From Tateyamaria omphalii (GTDB lineage: Bacteria; Pseudomonadota; Alphaproteobacteria; Rhodobacterales; Rhodobacteraceae), in assembly GCF_019802125.1 (NCBI RefSeq), contig NZ_JAHVHT010000002.1, forward strand, positions 434,001 through 498,000: a DNA stretch of 64,000 nucleotides, in the 5' to 3' direction. This document shows, one piece after another, positions 1 through 8,115 of the stretch (position 1 is its first letter; each line of letters begins with the position of its first letter). Both the position numbers and the translations under genes were made by a program. The notes below the pieces were generated by a model. The model saw only the letters and a list, made by a program, of their open reading frames with translations. It did not search any database and was not told the origin of the DNA.

Positions 1-1139
1 AGGTTGTAGGGGTCACGGAACAACTCAAAGATTTGCAGCCGGAACGCCGCGTTTTCGGGGCTTGGATCCGCAAGGCGGGCGACGTAATCCGGGTCGCTTA
101 GATCGCCGATGGCCAACCAGCCTTGGCGCAGGTTAGCTGCTTGCGTCACCCATTCCATCAGCGCGATGCGCCGGAAAGTGGGGTAGATGTACCGCATGAA
201 CGACAGCGGCAGGTCCGGCATTTCTGACCACCCCTCCTGCACATTCATGTCTTCGATCACGTCGTACAGTGTTGTGATCGGCGGGATTTCCGGCGCGAAG
301 TTTGGACCGACGCACGCCACCCAAGACGGTTCCGCCTCAAATACCTCCTCGCCCACCCGCACGCTTGCGGTCACCGGCCCGTCGCACCAGTCATCATGCC
401 AGGCGTTGTTGTCAGCAAAGCTGGTGATCGGCGCGTTGCTTGGCGAATCCGATACGCCGTCCGGCGGCACAACCAACAGCCGTCCCCGATCGTCGGTGCG
501 TACCTGCCCCAACCCGACCGAGATTGCGTCGGGTTGCCCGCCCCAGAACGTGCCCTCGAACCCATAGGCGGGGTCGCTTCCATCGCGATTGACGTCACGC
601 CCCGAGATCTCGAGCAATCCGCCGTCGATAAGCAGGTTCTGCTCACGGTCGGTGTTGTTGACGAAATACTGGTTGCGCTTTTGCGACGGCAGACCGGGTG
701 CGAGGTCGCCATTGTCGAGCGGATTGTTGAAGCCGTACCAGTTCGCCTTGGTGTTCGCGAGGTGAACGCCCCATGTGATGTCGTCACCCGCCACCTCCCC
801 GATGATGTTGTCATCAGCATCAAAGGCATACACGCGGAAACGTTGGACCTGTTTCTTGATCTTCTCCAACCCGTCTTTGAATGCACCATCTTCGGGCATG
901 GGTGGCAGACCTGGGACTTCGGGCGCGTAAAACCACTTCTCCGACCCGCCGACCCTGCAAATCCCGAGCGCTGGATAAATGCGAACCTTGGCGATTGTGG
1001 CGTCCGCGTCCGCGGCAGAATACGCATTTCTAGGATCGACATTAGCGCGCGCAGGCCAAGGCGCGCCTGCAATCAATGCGGCACTGGATGCCATGCCAAG
1101 AAAGTGACGACGGGATGGCGATTTGGGTGGGAAAGACAT
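1..1139 (-). CDS. LodA/GoxA-like CTQ-dependent amino acid oxidase (3' end outside window)
   Basis: This frame stays open from an ATG at 1139 to the window edge (379 codons), so only the N-terminal part is seen. Residues 1-32 form a Tat-type signal: RR at 10-11 in SRRHFLGMA, then a hydrophobic stretch ending ARA. Mature residues carry the hallmark start of the LodA/GoxA family: KVRIYPALGICRVGGS (about 51-66), an FKDG..IKKQ..RFRVYAF segment, then ITWGVHLANTKANWYGF. Family members use a cysteine tryptophylquinone cofactor to oxidise amino acids (LodA acts on lysine, GoxA on glycine) and release hydrogen peroxide. The cofactor Cys and Trp lie in the missing C-terminal half, and any LodB-like flavoprotein partner would be left of the window. 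Substrate cannot be told. Family assignment is firm; activity is inferred. Confidence 0.85.
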   Translation of the reverse strand, partial: MSFPPKSPSRRHFLGMASSAALIAGAPWPARANVDPRNAYSAADADATIAKVRIYPALGICRVGGSEKWFYAPEVPGLPPMPEDGAFKDGLEKIKKQVQRFRVYAFDADDNIIGEVAGDDITWGVHLANTKANWYGFNNPLDNGDLAPGLPSQKRNQYFVNNTDREQNLLIDGGLLEISGRDVNRDGSDPAYGFEGTFWGGQPDAISVGLGQVRTDDRGRLLVVPPDGVSDSPSNAPITSFADNNAWHDDWCDGPVTASVRVGEEVFEAEPSWVACVGPNFAPEIPPITTLYDVIEDMNVQEGWSEMPDLPLSFMRYIYPTFRRIALMEWVTQAANLRQGWLAIGDLSDPDYVARLADPSPENAAFRLQIFELFRDPYN

Positions 1140-1896: not shown

Positions 1897-4800
1897 TCAG
1901 AACAAGAAGTCATCAGCGCTCAGATCTGCAAGGTTAGTGTCGCTGAGTACCATCGAATTACCGTTCAGATCATCGATGACGACATCATTTCCGGCCTGAA
2001 ACAGATGCCCGTTGTTTGTGAGGTCGTCGAAATCGACGATTTCAGCGACGGCACGCAGGTCGACCACTTCGTTACTCAGACCGGCCTCGAAGTCTGTCAC
2101 CACATCGCGACCAGTCGAGAAGACAAAGATGTCTCCGCCGCCGTCACCGGTCAGGATGTCGTCGCCCGCGCCGCCATCCATCCGGTCGCGACCATTTCCG
2201 CCGTTCAGGACATCGTCGCCGCCTTCGCCGTCCAGGCGATTCCGACCACCGCCCCCGGCATCAAGCGTATCGTTGCCCGAACCACCGAAGAGGGTGTCGT
2301 TGCCTTCGTTCCCGGTCATGAAATCGTTGCCGGACGACCCGGACAAGACGTCGTTGCCTTCGTCTCCCCTGATCCGGTCATCACCTCCGCCACCGCTTAT
2401 TCTGTCGTCTCCTTCGTGGCCAATAACGGTATCATTCCCATCGTTGCCCTGGATCACGTCATCTTCGGCACCTCCGAGGACAGTATCGTTACCCTCACCG
2501 CCGCGGAGCGTATCGTTTCCGGTACCGCCCGAGATCAGGTCGTTGCCGTCACCGCCGTCGATCGAGTCGCTGCCAGCATCGCCCCGGAGTTCGTCGTCGC
2601 CTTCGCCCCCATCGATGGTGTCGTTGCCTTCGCCGCCCGACAGGGTGTCTTGACCTTCGTCGCCCTGCAGCAGGTCGTTGCCATCGTCACCGTCAATCGA
2701 GTCGTTGCCGGTGCCGCCGGACAGGGTGTCTTCGCCCTCGCCGCCTTGCACAATGTCATTGCCTTCGCCAGCGAGGACCGAGTCGTTGCCGACGCCACCC
2801 GTGATCAGGTCGTTGCCGTCACCGCCTTCGATGGTGTCCGTGCCCGCGCCACCCGACAGGGTGTCGTCGCCATCGTCGCCAAAGATCGTGTCGTCGCCCG
2901 CATCGCCATTGACGATATCGTTGCCGATTTGACCCGAGATGAAGTCGTTGCCTTCCCCACCGTCGATCGAGTCGTTTCCGTTTCCGCCGCCGAGAACGTC
3001 GTTGCCGATACCGCCGTCGAGGGTGTCGTCGCCATTTCCGCCACCGAGAATGTCGTCGCCAACACCGCCGTCGAGGGAGTCGTCGCCGTTTCCGCCTGAA
3101 ATGATGTCGTCGCCTGCCTCGCCCAAGAGCGTATCGTTGTCGTCGTTGCCGGCAATGTTGTCATTGCCTTCACCACCCTCGATCAGATCATCGCCATCAC
3201 CGCCACGCAGGGTGTCATCGCCATCGCGGCCGCGCAGGAAATTGTCCTGTGCATCGCCGCGAATTTCGTCGTCGAAGTTGGACCCAGCCACGTTTTCAAT
3301 GTTGACCAGCACGTCGCCTTCGGCGTCGCCACCAGACTGGGTAGCGGCAGTCAGGTCGATCTCCACACCTTCGTCGGACCTGACATAGTCGGCCGTGTCG
3401 ATACCTGCGCCACCGTCAACCGTGTCAGCACCTGCCCCGCTACGGAAGATCGTATCCTGGCTGTCGCCGATGAAGTTGTCGTTGAAATCCGACCCTTCGA
3501 TGACTTCGATGTCGAAGAAGCTGTCGCCATCGGCATCCCCGGCACCCGCATTCGGTGCCTTCATGTTCAGCGTCACGGCCGAGGTCGCATCGCGATAGGA
3601 AACGATATCAAACCCGTTGCCCCCGATGTGAATATCCAGACCGGCTCCACCGAAGAAAAAATCGTTGCCATCGCCACCGATCTGGACGTCATTGCCCGTG
3701 CCGCCAATGAAGAGGTCGTTGCCGTCGCCACCATCCAGCACATCGTTGCCAGCATCTCCGAACAAGCGGTCATTGCCCACACCACCGCTGATCTCGTCCT
3801 GGTCGTTACCGCCGCTTAGGCTGTCGTTGCCCTCGCCACCGCGAATGGTGTCGTCACCGCTGCCACCGGTGATGGTGTCGTTGCCGTCCTCACCAAAGAA
3901 CTGGTTGGCGCGGCCGTCGCCGCCCAGCGTGTCGCCAAAGGCCGAACCGATAAGGCCGTCGATCCCGCTGATTTGGTCGCCCTCTGCGTGGCCGCCGGAT
4001 GCCGTTCTGGCTGCAATGTTCACTGCGACCGCTGCATCTGACGCAGAATAGTCGGCAACATCTTCACCGCCACCGCCATTCAGAACGTCAGCGCCGGCAC
4101 CGCCGATCAGCAGGTCATCATTGTCTCCACCAAACAGGCTGTCGTCGCCTTCGCCGCCGTTCAACGTGTCCTTGCCGTTGTCGCCTTCCAGCCGGTCGTC
4201 GCCCTCGCGACCTTCGAGCAGGTCGTTGCCGCTGCCGCCATCCAGGCTGTCCTTGCCGGTAGAGCCGATCATGACATCGCGGTCGCTCTCGCCGATGACA
4301 CGGATGATGTCATTGTCGGTGAAGCCGACAAACTCGATTTGCGAAAGGTCCACATCCGCGCCATCCATCACAATGGCAATGTCGACCGCCGTGTCGCCAG
4401 TGCCATTGTTGATACGGATGCGCTCGATATCTTCCAGCTGCGAAGAGTGGATGTTGAAGCCCTTGCGACCGCTGGTGCTGTCGTTGATCAGAATGTCCTC
4501 GAAGCCCGAGATCGTGTCGTTACGGAATTCCTGGAACTCGCGCAGCTCAAGCGTGTCAAAACCATCACCACCGTCAAGCCCGACGTTGTCCCGGTTTTCT
4601 TCGAGGCGCAGGCGGTCATTGAAGGCCGATCCGATGAAACCGTCGATGCCGGAATAGGTGTCGCCCTCGGCGTCGCCGCCGACACCGATGCCCCGGTTCA
4701 GGCTGACGATCACGCGCTCGGCGGAATCGGCGTAGCTGACGGTGTCACGGTTGTCGCCACCGTTCAGTTCATCAGCGCCCGCGCCGCCGATCAGAATGTC

Positions 4801-5619
4801 GTTGCCGTTGCCGCCAAAGATCGTGTCATCGCCGTCGCCACCATTGACCGTGTCGTTGCCGCCCCGGGCACTGATTTCGTCGTTCTGTGTCGATCCGATG
4901 ATAAAATCAGCATCGTTCTCACCTTCGACCCGGATGGTGTCGTTGCGGTCGAAGCCGGTGAAGTTGATGCCAGACAGGTCAGCGTTGACGCCGTTTTCCA
5001 TGTCGAAAAAGAGATCAACATCGCCCGAGAAGCTGCGGACATTAATCTCTTCCAGATCAGCAAGCTGATCGGACTTGATATTGAAACCGACGCGCCCAGA
5101 GGTCGTATCGGCAATCACGATACGCTCGAAGTTCAGAAGCGTGTCATTGCGCAGATCCTGAAATTCGTTGAGGAACAACGAGTCGAAACCGTCGCCACCA
5201 TTGAAGAACAGGTTGCTGCGGTTGGCGTTCACATCGAGCTGGTCGTTAAAGTCGGACCCGATGAAGCCGTCGATATTGTCAAGCTCGTCACCCTCTGCAT
5301 GCCCGCCGCTGCCAACACCAAAGTTAAGACCGATGCGCACACCCTCGTCAGAATTGGCGTAGCTGACAATGTCGTCTCCGCCGCGGCCATCTATGGTGTC
5401 CGCGCCCGCTCCGCCGTCGATTGTGTCTGCGCCGTCACCGCCGTTGATGCTGTCGTCGCCGTCACCGCCGAACAGCAAATCATTGCCGCCGTCGCCAAAG
5501 ATCGTGTCGTCGCCCCCCAGTCCGTTGACCGTATCGTTGCCCCCATTGGCATCAATGACGTCCGCATCATTCGTTCCGTTCAAAACTTCCGAAGTATTGT
5601 CACCATTAATATTGGCCAT
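1897..5619 (-). CDS. Large RTX (hemolysin-type calcium-binding) secreted protein
   Basis: A 1240-residue acidic protein made almost entirely of GGxGxDxUx nonapeptide repeats, which bind calcium after export by a type I secretion system. There is no N-terminal signal peptide, as expected for T1SS substrates. The C-terminal 95 residues (GDIFVFSTGRDVVTDFEAG, then a last VLSDTNLADLSADDFLF) match the usual uncleaved T1SS signal region. Repeat blocks alternate with beta-rich modules; two long ones (about 84-245 and 292-455) are clear duplicates of each other, and shorter forms recur three times. I chose the ATG at 5619 (MANINGDN), preceded by an AGGGAAAAG-type RBS; an upstream in-frame start exists but lacks this. 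No enzymatic domain is visible, so an adhesin, matrix or S-layer-like role is as likely as a toxin. No T1SS genes lie in the window. Confidence 0.9.
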   Translation of the reverse strand: MANINGDNTSEVLNGTNDADVIDANGGNDTVNGLGGDDTIFGDGGNDLLFGGDGDDSINGGDGADTIDGGAGADTIDGRGGDDIVSYANSDEGVRIGLNFGVGSGGHAEGDELDNIDGFIGSDFNDQLDVNANRSNLFFNGGDGFDSLFLNEFQDLRNDTLLNFERIVIADTTSGRVGFNIKSDQLADLEEINVRSFSGDVDLFFDMENGVNADLSGINFTGFDRNDTIRVEGENDADFIIGSTQNDEISARGGNDTVNGGDGDDTIFGGNGNDILIGGAGADELNGGDNRDTVSYADSAERVIVSLNRGIGVGGDAEGDTYSGIDGFIGSAFNDRLRLEENRDNVGLDGGDGFDTLELREFQEFRNDTISGFEDILINDSTSGRKGFNIHSSQLEDIERIRINNGTGDTAVDIAIVMDGADVDLSQIEFVGFTDNDIIRVIGESDRDVMIGSTGKDSLDGGSGNDLLEGREGDDRLEGDNGKDTLNGGEGDDSLFGGDNDDLLIGGAGADVLNGGGGEDVADYSASDAAVAVNIAARTASGGHAEGDQISGIDGLIGSAFGDTLGGDGRANQFFGEDGNDTITGGSGDDTIRGGEGNDSLSGGNDQDEISGGVGNDRLFGDAGNDVLDGGDGNDLFIGGTGNDVQIGGDGNDFFFGGAGLDIHIGGNGFDIVSYRDATSAVTLNMKAPNAGAGDADGDSFFDIEVIEGSDFNDNFIGDSQDTIFRSGAGADTVDGGAGIDTADYVRSDEGVEIDLTAATQSGGDAEGDVLVNIENVAGSNFDDEIRGDAQDNFLRGRDGDDTLRGGDGDDLIEGGEGNDNIAGNDDNDTLLGEAGDDIISGGNGDDSLDGGVGDDILGGGNGDDTLDGGIGNDVLGGGNGNDSIDGGEGNDFISGQIGNDIVNGDAGDDTIFGDDGDDTLSGGAGTDTIEGGDGNDLITGGVGNDSVLAGEGNDIVQGGEGEDTLSGGTGNDSIDGDDGNDLLQGDEGQDTLSGGEGNDTIDGGEGDDELRGDAGSDSIDGGDGNDLISGGTGNDTLRGGEGNDTVLGGAEDDVIQGNDGNDTVIGHEGDDRISGGGGDDRIRGDEGNDVLSGSSGNDFMTGNEGNDTLFGGSGNDTLDAGGGGRNRLDGEGGDDVLNGGNGRDRMDGGAGDDILTGDGGGDIFVFSTGRDVVTDFEAGLSNEVVDLRAVAEIVDFDDLTNNGHLFQAGNDVVIDDLNGNSMVLSDTNLADLSADDFLF

Positions 5620-5794
5620 CTGTCTTTTCCCTATACTGAAGCCCAAATGGGCGTTGGATATGGGTGGGTCGTTGATCCCCGGCATTCGGTTCAAAGTTTT
5701 TTGACCTAGCGGAAACCTGCCACTCTGCGCTGGTCCGTGGCGCGATGGCTGAAAGCCGTTGAATCGGACATACGGCCATGTAAGTTCGCCTGAG

Positions 5795-6364
5795 ATGACC
5801 GATCAGAGCACCCTTCCCAAACGCGAACCTCAGGACGCGGCCCTGCTGGCCCGTATCGGTCAGGGCGACATGTCGGCGATGAAGACCCTCTACGAATACC
5901 ATGCCGATGCGGTGGCCCGGTTTGTCCGCCCGCGCGTCCGCGATGCAGCGGAAGCTGATGACATAGTTCATGACACAATGCTGAGCGTTTGGCGTGGTGC
6001 GGCGGGGTTCCAGGGGCGGTCCAGCGTACGGTCGTGGATACTCACGCTTGCGCGCAACAAGACCGTCGATCACATCCGCAAACAGGCCCGCGTTACCCTG
6101 AGCGAGGCAGATGATGCCCGGGTCGACGATGCGCCCAACCCCGAAGCGGTGATGGGCGCTGCACAGGATGCTGCGCGGCTGCGGGCCTGCCTCGACAAGC
6201 TGCCGGATCGCCAGCGCGCCGCGATTCATCTGGCCTTTTACGAAGAGATGAGCTGTGCCGAGGTGGCTGTTGTTGAAAACGTCCCAGAAGGAACCGTGAA
6301 AAGCCGCATTTATCACGCCAAGAAGCTGTTGATGCGTTGTCTGTCACGCGGAGGGTTGAAATGA
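5795..6364 (+). CDS. ECF-family RNA polymerase sigma factor
   Basis: A 189-residue sigma-70 family protein of ECF size. Region 2 (about residues 15-85) has ALLARIGQGDMSAMKTLYEY, then AEADDIVHDTMLSVWRGA and SSVRSWILTLARNKTVDHIR. Region 4 (about 130-180) has LDKLPDRQRAAIHLAFYEEM and VPEGTVKSRIYHAKKLL, a helix-turn-helix for the -35 element. I take the ATG at 5795, which gives the standard ECF N-terminus; an in-frame TTG lies upstream at 5759. It leads an operon with the anti-sigma and subtilase genes and is divergent from the RTX gene across about 175 bases, so the RTX gene is a possible regulon member. The environmental signal is unknown. Confidence 0.92.
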   Translation: MTDQSTLPKREPQDAALLARIGQGDMSAMKTLYEYHADAVARFVRPRVRDAAEADDIVHDTMLSVWRGAAGFQGRSSVRSWILTLARNKTVDHIRKQARVTLSEADDARVDDAPNPEAVMGAAQDAARLRACLDKLPDRQRAAIHLAFYEEMSCAEVAVVENVPEGTVKSRIYHAKKLLMRCLSRGGLK

Positions 6365-6428
6365 TTTTGAACCGTTCCGTATTCTCGCCCGTCCAATGGA
6401 TACTCGATATCCTGGCAGAGAGGTTGAC

Positions 6429-6998
6429 ATGAGCCGACCAGACGGACTGAGCGAAGACGAATTGCTGGCGCACGTGCGCGGCGAAACAGACTCCGAGACC
6501 GCCGCCCGGATCGAGGCGCAGGCGGACGCAGACCCCGCGCTACGCGCCGAATTGGAAATGATGGCAGGGCTTCGCTGCGCTCTGGCCCTGGGAGACGGCG
6601 CTGCAGAAGGAGGCTGGGACAGGTTGGCGGCCGAGATCGAACGAACCAAACCCGCGAACCAGCCGAACCGACCGGTATGGCGCATCGCGGCCATGTTTCT
6701 CGGCGCGGTCGTACTGGTTCAGGGGACCTTTCTGATCGTTGGCGGCGGCTCGGAAGACGGCCCACTGTATCGCACCGTTTCCGAAACGCCCGCGGATGCG
6801 ACCCTCGCCGTGACATTCGCATCCGAAACAACTGCGGCGGAGATCGAGGCCTTGCTGCGCAGCGCCGGTGCAAATATCGTGGATGGACCAAGCGCCTTGG
6901 GCTTTTACCGCTTGGTATTTGTCGACGCCGCCGCGCGGGAAGCGGCACAGACAGCTCTGGAAACCTCGCCATTTGTCGAGATCGTTGCCGAGGAGTGA
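6429..6998 (+). CDS. Membrane anti-sigma factor with propeptide-like periplasmic domain
   Basis: A 189-residue protein 65 bases after the sigma gene, with a GAGAGG RBS before the ATG at 6429. Residues 1-80 look like a small cytoplasmic anti-sigma region (LSEDELLAHVRGET at 7-20, acidic and helical). One membrane helix follows at about 84-106, then a periplasmic domain of about 80 residues. That last part has a beta-alpha-beta-beta-alpha-beta flavour (LAVTFASETTAAEIEALL .. FYRLVFVDAAAREAAQTAL .. FVEIVAEE), reminiscent of the I9-type propeptide of subtilases. The next gene is a subtilase, so this domain may bind or be cut by it; that link is inference. Assignment as anti-sigma rests on position, topology and the N-terminal motif. 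Confidence 0.8.
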   Translation: MSRPDGLSEDELLAHVRGETDSETAARIEAQADADPALRAELEMMAGLRCALALGDGAAEGGWDRLAAEIERTKPANQPNRPVWRIAAMFLGAVVLVQGTFLIVGGGSEDGPLYRTVSETPADATLAVTFASETTAAEIEALLRSAGANIVDGPSALGFYRLVFVDAAAREAAQTALETSPFVEIVAEE

Positions 6999-6999
6999 T

Positions 7000-8115
7000 A
7001 TGATCCGCCTGATCGTGTTCGTGTGCCTTGTTCTGGCTGCCTGTGGACCTGCCGGGCCACCCCGCGCCACAGGGGCTGGCGACCTGCCTTTTGCCGTGAC
7101 GGACGAGCGGGAACTTGTCGTGCTGACAGCAGAGGCGCCGGAAGTGCTGATCGCGCGCGCCGAGGCGCGCGGCTATGTCCTCCTCGCACAGCATCCGCTG
7201 CCCAGTCTGGACGACATTCTTGTCGTATTTCGCATTCCAATTGGCACCACTATCCCAGAGGCCATTGACGAGATCGAGGCTGCAGTTCCCGGCGTTACCG
7301 CCGGAGCGAACCACCTCTATAGTTTACAGAGCCGCGCTCTGGCCGCGGTCGACTACGCCGGTTCCATGATCGGTTGGCCCGAAGAGGGCTGCGTCGCCCG
7401 CGCGCGCGTGGGCATGATCGACGGCGGCGTGGCGCCGGACCACCCCGGCCTCGCCTCAGGCCAGATCATTCAGGAAGCTTTCGGGGGCGGGTCCGACGCA
7501 CAAGCCATGGAGCACGGGAGCAGGATCGCAACGCTGCTTGTGGGGCCGGGACGGTTGCGCGGCACGCCGCTCTACAGCGCCAATGTCATCTCTCAGGGTG
7601 ACACGGCAGGTGTTGTTCCGATCTTGCGTGCGCTCGACTGGCTGGCTGCGAACGGGGTGCGTGTTGTCAACATCAGCATGGCAGGGCCACGGAACAAGCT
7701 GATGAACCGGGCCCTGTCGCGGGCTGCGGCAGACGGTATGCTTCTGGTGGCCGCAGTTGGCAATGAAGGCCCGAGCGCGCCGCCCCAGTTCCCCGCTGCT
7801 TTTCCCTTCGTGCTGGGCGTGACCGCTGTGGATCGCGACGGCGCGATTTTCCGCAATGCGGGACGTGGGTCGCATGTGGATCTGGCCGCGCCAGGGGTGG
7901 ATATCATGGTGCGCGACGGTGCGCGCCTCCGGATCGCGAGCGGCACCTCGATGGCGGCGCCCTTTGTGACGGCAGCCATTGCGGCGGACAAAAACCTGAC
8001 CCGGCGGTCCGTGGAATCGGTCCGTGAGTCCTTGGGTGCAGCAGCAAAGGATCTGGGCCCCGCCGGGCGCGACACCGTGTTTGGAGCAGGGCTGTTGCAG
8101 TTTTCCGGGTGCTGA
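7000..8115 (+). CDS. Lipoprotein subtilisin-like serine protease (S8 family)
   Basis: A 371-residue protein whose ATG begins one base after the anti-sigma stop codon, so the two are probably co-translated. Residues 1-15 are a lipoprotein signal with lipobox LAAC (Cys15). Residues 28-110 resemble a short propeptide. The catalytic set is complete: Asp141 in GMIDGG, His172 in EHGSRIA, oxyanion Asn255 in VGNEGP and nucleophile Ser317 in GTSMAAP. It should act at a membrane face in the periplasm. Being third in a sigma/anti-sigma operon, it could process the anti-sigma factor or be a stress-induced product; the sequence does not decide this. The catalytic domain is compact, about 220 residues, near the lower end for the family. 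Confidence 0.9.
   Translation: MIRLIVFVCLVLAACGPAGPPRATGAGDLPFAVTDERELVVLTAEAPEVLIARAEARGYVLLAQHPLPSLDDILVVFRIPIGTTIPEAIDEIEAAVPGVTAGANHLYSLQSRALAAVDYAGSMIGWPEEGCVARARVGMIDGGVAPDHPGLASGQIIQEAFGGGSDAQAMEHGSRIATLLVGPGRLRGTPLYSANVISQGDTAGVVPILRALDWLAANGVRVVNISMAGPRNKLMNRALSRAAADGMLLVAAVGNEGPSAPPQFPAAFPFVLGVTAVDRDGAIFRNAGRGSHVDLAAPGVDIMVRDGARLRIASGTSMAAPFVTAAIAADKNLTRRSVESVRESLGAAAKDLGPAGRDTVFGAGLLQFSGC

Follow-up and report, generated by a model that had tools for sequence, protein, structure and literature searches.

In the literature compared here, the closest described counterparts of the system analysed in this study are the ECF26 sigma factors, a group of extracytoplasmic function (ECF) sigma factors in which the presence of a divergently oriented serine protease gene beside the sigma gene is described as widely conserved (PMC6180224). 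The S. meliloti example is SMa0142, a serine protease encoded divergently from rpoE6 and one of the most prominent RpoE6 targets (table value 4.7); the periplasmic domain of EcfR6 is likened to B. subtilis RsiW, with activation called hypothetical (PMC6180224). Here we analysed a 64,000-nucleotide stretch of the Tateyamaria omphalii genome (contig NZ_JAHVHT010000002.1, positions 434,001 to 498,000; hereafter the window, with coordinates counted from its first base), in which a serine protease gene adjoins a sigma/anti-sigma pair, as in the ECF26 module. Like the rpoE6-ecfR6 locus, it brings together an ECF sigma factor, a membrane-bound anti-sigma factor and a serine protease; unlike SMa0142, whose gene is divergent from the sigma/anti-sigma pair, the window protease is encoded after the anti-sigma factor. 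What appears to be new here is a domain resembling a subtilase prodomain at the periplasmic end of the anti-sigma factor; that a serine protease can be linked to an ECF/anti-sigma pair was already known from ECF26. Our favoured explanation, which is tentative and falls somewhat short of probable, is that this domain is a subtilase prodomain turned receptor, and that the docked subtilase cuts the anti-sigma stalk and frees the sigma factor.

Other known systems share parts of this arrangement. RseA and DegS also pair an anti-sigma factor that has a periplasmic part with a periplasmic serine protease as the first cutter, the role proposed here for the window enzyme; DegS, however, is a PDZ/HtrA protease and the window enzyme is a subtilase (PMC8103513). 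For subtilases encoded near ECF54, the sigma factor itself is the proposed target (PMC8999054). POIA1, SUB1-ProM (encoded beside its subtilase) and TgMIC5 are likewise prodomain folds detached from a protease, but they are described as inhibitors or regulators of a subtilase and are not anti-sigma factors, whereas the window domain is tail-less and tethered to a transcription switch (PMC6993865). Subtilisin prosegments (1spb_P, 1scj_B, 3cnq_P) and the Pfam family PF22148 differ in belonging to the protease rather than to a membrane anti-sigma factor; the window domain, moreover, lacks tail positions 72-77 and scores below the Pfam cut-off. A classification of class I anti-sigma domains names no such domain in the 12 of its 14 places covered here (PMC7406223), and no anti-sigma factor with a subtilase prodomain was found in the literature searched, a remark in the ECF reclassification (NAR 2021) not being excluded. 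The statement of an earlier note on this DNA that no such system had been described thus holds for the anti-sigma domain within that literature, and fails for the serine protease linkage, known for ECF26 (PMC6180224).

All three genes lie on the + strand. The sigma factor (189 residues; 5795..6364; Sigma70_r2 1.5e-17 and Sigma70_r4_2 7.2e-15 in Pfam) starts at the ATG at 5795, with an in-frame TTG at 5759. The anti-sigma factor (189 residues; 6429..6998; family alignment A1), with an upstream in-frame ATG at 6396, has a single hydrophobic span at residues 86-104 (6684..6740; hydropathy 2.37; model helix 83-104) that separates its cytoplasmic and periplasmic parts. Beyond the membrane come a flexible stalk, residues 105-121 (6741..6791), a candidate cleavage region with predicted local distance difference test (pLDDT) values below 50 at residues 105-116, and the prodomain-like domain, residues 122-189 (6792..6995). 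One base separates the anti-sigma stop codon (ending at 6998) from the ATG (7000) of the S8 (subtilase) protease (371 residues; 7000..8115; Peptidase_S8, PF00082, 2.3e-22). The protease carries LAAC at residues 12-15, which we take to be a lipobox, and the residues expected of an S8 enzyme: catalytic Asp141 (7420-7422), His172 (7513-7515) and Ser317 (7948-7950), and oxyanion Asn255 (7762-7764). Coordinates, Pfam matches and these residues agree with the earlier note, which had described a sigma/anti-sigma/subtilase run with a complete subtilase lipoprotein one base away from its neighbour.

The resemblance of the anti-sigma domain to a subtilase prodomain was seen in a structure model, a check that the earlier note had proposed and that yielded a prodomain-like fold. 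The AlphaFold2 model contains strands at residues 125-130, 149-152, 160-163 and 183-188 and helices at 136-146 and 167-179, in a block with pLDDT 86-96. Among the PDB families listed by VIA-align, which define the scope of the structural ranking, pro-subtilisin E and three subtilisin prosegments rank first, so that all of the top four PDB rows are pro-subtilisins; further entries include POIA1, Tk-propeptides and a furin-prodomain complex.

Sequence comparisons point the same way. The best Pfam family of the window anti-sigma factor is PF22148 (Fervidolysin_NPro-like), with no family above its cut-off, and PF22148 was matched by 18 of 35 homologous domains including that of the window (single scans, E <= 1; best 1.5e-6), each other Pfam family listed being matched by one of the 35 only. 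Among 46 further members, seven matched PF22148 (E <= 0.1) and two the next family, and the homologue in locus L114 exceeds the PF22148 cut-off (a gathering score of 21 bits) with 26.9 bits. A chance resemblance was considered and rejected, because PF22148 is the sole family found in more than one of the 35 domains and the best structures agree with it. The I9 family itself (PF05922) is absent among the families listed by Pfam scans of these proteins. The propeptide pattern described in the earlier note stands, by the best Pfam family and the fold.

Profiles of the anti-sigma domain were also compared with profiles of the partner prodomains, using 200 column-shuffled controls for each comparison. 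On the domain side, A5 and A8 represent separate branches within the family of anti-sigma domains and match each other at 1e-18. The A8-A9 comparison scored 26.1 (largest shuffled control 18.9) and A5-A9 scored 22.7 (largest control 19.1), with none of the 200 controls as high in either case; the control is lenient, because column shuffling destroys the periodicity of helices and strands. A positive control of prodomain against prodomain (A9-A3) scored 28.7. Searching PDB sequences with the domain profile retrieved no prodomain, the best hits being unrelated (E 0.24 for A2, 0.18 for A5), and comparing the entire anti-sigma profile with the entire protease profile gave no useful match.

The place at which the anti-sigma chain ends bears on how the domain could act. 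Model residues 123..189 align with 1spb_P 7..71 in VIA-align, so that the final window residue, 189, corresponds to position 71 of the subtilisin BPN' prosegment, and nothing in the window protein corresponds to positions 72-77, which in subtilisin form the tail entering the active site. In the subtilisin prosegment complex, Glu69 and Asp71 cap two protease helices and the propeptide tail reaches into the active-site groove of the protease (PMC6993865). Since its last residue aligns with position 71, the window protein keeps the surface part of a prodomain without the tail. It has no residues beyond the end of the family model; the chain ends within five residues of the last aligned one in 53 of 82 proteins (81 and the window), and in the alignments the nearer relatives of the window stop at about the same place. 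The domain of the window protein is unlikely to be an active-site mimic. The earlier note's idea of a propeptide mimic, in the sense of one that blocks the active site, was not borne out: the chain ends at position 71, and the protease keeps its own N-terminal region.

This N-terminal region, in propeptide position (about residues 36-112; 7105..7335), is alignable across 19 proteases of the window lineage (A3), and the A3 profile scored above all 200 shuffled controls against A9, built from LAEP-type prodomains (the A9-A3 comparison given above). PF22148 itself was matched by nine of 38 scanned partner proteases, a scan that left out L064-L079; in the one case in which the placement of the match was displayed, the L113 protease, it reaches 24.3 bits, above the cut-off, and is located before the S8 domain. 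Among the 73 aligned proteases (72 and the window), D is present in 73, H in 73, S in 72 and N in 63, the single gap at S being a protein cut by a contig end. At the oxyanion position, ten partner proteases (L114, L120, L122, L125-L127, L129, L130, L165, L167) have A, D, K or P in place of an aligned Asn; these enzymes may be inactive, or the alignment may be off there.

The gene trio is conserved, as the earlier note's suggested survey of the neighbourhood was to establish. S8 is present in 72 of 81 loci with a domain-bearing anti-sigma factor, and the sigma factor as well in 71 of 81; the window is not counted among the 81, and L004 (Tateyamaria sp. syn59, the nearest named relative) is. The 81 are not a count of independent cases, because many loci share genera (nine matched genomes in g413, six in g438). 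In the family of the window, the anti-sigma factor occurs in 17 of 149 genomes, the window's own among them, and sigma and S8 occur in all 17 further loci. In its class, 16 of 385 genomes (its own included) matched, and the 16 further loci have S8 in 15 and sigma in 14. Across the phylum, 40 of 398 genomes matched (its own and two earlier ones included), with the anti-sigma factor in 34 of 38 further loci and S8 in 30 of those 34. In the class of G661, 14 of 274 genomes matched (G661 included); 13 of 15 further loci hold the domain, nine of the 13 with S8. L171 and L172 are scored as lacking S8 although their contigs end there. Excluded from the 81 are L131-L134 (weak or no domain match, no anti-sigma match), L174 and L176 (an anti-sigma factor with another C-terminal part) and the plasmid loci L023-L029 described below; alignment A11 omits L166, a contig-end fragment. 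A hydrophobic segment (hydropathy >=1.6) is found at the expected place in 80 of the 81 anti-sigma members, the lowest value being 1.33. Because a prodomain-like fold was found and the trio is conserved, the outcomes on fold and conservation that the earlier note held against its own proposal did not occur.

Three gene orders occur: sigma, anti-sigma and S8 in succession (62 loci), an inverted anti-sigma gene with S8 divergent from it (seven), and S8 first (two). In L031, L032, L033, L034, L041, L064 and L110 the anti-sigma gene is on the strand opposite sigma and S8, which is unusual for a sigma/anti-sigma pair; in the operon-type loci L045 and L075, 600-800 bases separate anti-sigma from S8, and in L112 and L113 S8 adjoins sigma rather than anti-sigma. 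Adjacency by chance is unlikely, because the window genome has just three S8 matches in total. A second, stronger S8 match lies about 27 kb before the window start (L001), with no sigma or anti-sigma factor of the trio's kind in the 3.8 kb examined there. Distances of domain and S8 correlate after sigma distances are removed (partial r 0.26; 0 of 999 permutations; 40 loci thinned from 69), a modest correlation that can reflect shared descent.

Seven of 227 plasmid records with a match are the ECF26-type loci L023-L029. L027, from an S. meliloti plasmid, contains the published SMa0142 promoter sequence (PMC6180224); the six others were assigned by arrangement and similarity. The window sigma factor and S8 protease match all seven in single-sequence searches, on which this count rests because the plasmid loci had themselves gone into the sigma and S8 models. 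The whole anti-sigma model also matches 7/7 (E 7e-12 to 8e-4), and the model of the prodomain-like domain matches 0/7, the sequences also differing by eye. These loci have a related S8 protease and sigma factor, and their anti-sigma factors carry another periplasmic domain, as though one sensor had been swapped for another.

The prodomain fold, the S8-linked family and the missing active-site tail form the computed basis for reading the domain as a receptor. In the mechanism that we favour, the mature lipoprotein subtilase would dock on the domain via the very two-helix surface on which its own prodomain ordinarily sits. With no tail in its active site, the docked protease could then cut the flexible stalk between the domain and the membrane. 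This site-1 cut would lead to intramembrane proteolysis of the anti-sigma factor and free the sigma factor, which would transcribe its own operon and so produce more anti-sigma factor and protease. As a signal, the system would respond to anything that results in mature periplasmic subtilase no longer bound by its own prodomain. A docking role of the anti-sigma domain is well motivated, and in our judgement the cognate subtilase probably does dock there. Stalk cutting as the site-1 step seems the best reading of the missing tail together with the disordered stalk; that the cut leads to activation is less certain than the docking itself.

A promoter-like hexamer suggests autoregulation by the sigma factor, although the signal is weak among the window's 21 nearest loci. 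TGAACC, arrived at through a TGAA...GTC spacing that stood out among the spaced pairs tried, occurs upstream of sigma in 23 of 56 other loci, many from the same genera (3.0 expected; 0 of 60 shuffles, drawn here and below from a first-order chain in which dinucleotides are not exactly preserved). GGTTCA is found in five of seven regions between an inverted anti-sigma gene and S8 (0.33 expected, 0/60 shuffles) and in five of the 21 loci nearest the window (1.0 expected, 0/60). GGAAC and GGAAT, from other ECF promoters, showed no enrichment.

Several results weigh against a prodomain turned receptor. The fold match is not unique: Z scores stay below 8, and Boca/Mesd and RRM domains reach 7.0-7.4, less than 1 below the prosegments. 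The window protein remains under the PF22148 cut-off, with 16.4 bits for the whole protein and 18.8 for the domain alone. The A5-A3 score (16.39; 0/200 controls as high) is barely over the largest control, A8-A3 (12.5) was reached by 20 of 200 controls, one failure in four tests, and hhalign probabilities between domain and prodomain are low (45.7% for A6-A7, 29.7% for A8-A9, 13.2% for A5-A9 and 2.4% for A5-A3). Toward sigma, TGAACC occurs in 3 of the 21 loci nearest the window, which is not significant (10/60 shuffles). Seven untruncated loci lack S8 (L067, L121, L123, L124, L128, L164, L170), and in L121 (3950-4756) the domain-bearing anti-sigma gene directly adjoins a caspase-family protein gene (Peptidase_C14, 1.8e-39) in place of S8. 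The domain might instead be a ferredoxin-like sensor of a ligand or protein without protease contact, the subtilase being just a sigma target directed at other proteins of the envelope. Folds of the ferredoxin-like type occur widely, and further domains of this kind score almost equally in VIA-align; the ECF26-type loci keep their S8 neighbour with a different anti-sigma domain, and SMa0142 is an RpoE6 target in S. meliloti (PMC6180224). Yet the top PDB and Pfam matches are subtilase prodomains, the partner proteases match PF22148 likewise (9/38), and the S8 linkage persists across three gene orders; we consider such a sensor rather unlikely.

Two further difficulties concern the tail and the protease's own prodomain. 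LAEP-type loci (L114, L120, L122, L125-L127, L129, L130, L164, L165, L167, L170, of which L114 and L125 are in the class of the window and the others elsewhere in the phylum) have 9-21 residues beyond the last aligned residue of the model, a length at which reach into the active site is possible and which fits inhibition, and the branches may therefore differ in their capacity to block the protease. Counted by eye, these members stop 10-23 residues past the start of the last strand, a distance that is 13 residues in the subtilisin prosegment. An inhibitor or buffer, in which the domain would be a propeptide mimic that holds the bound subtilase in an inactive state, so that excess free protease or protease loss alters the anti-sigma factor and hence sigma, would accord with these lengths and with the stand-alone prodomain proteins POIA1 and SUB1-ProM, which inhibit subtilases (PMC6993865). 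It is improbable for the window, whose chain lacks the active-site tail, as do its nearer relatives, which stop at about that place, and most of the family (the 53 of 82 above). The prodomain regions of the 19 window-lineage proteases gave no Pfam prodomain match (0/19). Such divergence, and the aid that subtilase propeptides give to folding of the catalytic domain (PMC6993865), would suit a domain whose main role is that of an intermolecular chaperone, folding the subtilase at the membrane, and whose regulatory role comes second; but the proteases themselves retain a prodomain-like region (alignments A3, A7, A9) and the domain forms part of an anti-sigma factor rather than being a free protein, and we give this explanation very little credence.

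Divergent from the sigma gene, a gene on the - strand (1897-5619) encodes a large RTX-repeat-like, glycine-aspartate-rich protein. A putative promoter-like hexamer, TGAACC (5688..5693, - strand), reads toward this gene about 70 bases ahead of its likely ATG (5619), and both the gene start and the hexamer are common to L004.

A captured prodomain as receptor for the mature cognate subtilase may define a widespread class of membrane anti-sigma factors, coupling the periplasmic amount of prodomain-shed protease to transcription, with tail-less members being cut and tailed LAEP-type members holding the protease inhibited; this broader proposal is more doubtful than the explanation for the window itself. 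For the S. meliloti ECF26 sigma factors, one of which has a linked serine protease, switching-on has been called hypothetical (PMC6180224), and a prodomain-like receptor would offer a concrete route by which a linked protease could act on the switch. If true, the prodomain fold would be newly used as the sensing end of a transcription switch, neither as a chaperone nor as a stand-alone inhibitor.
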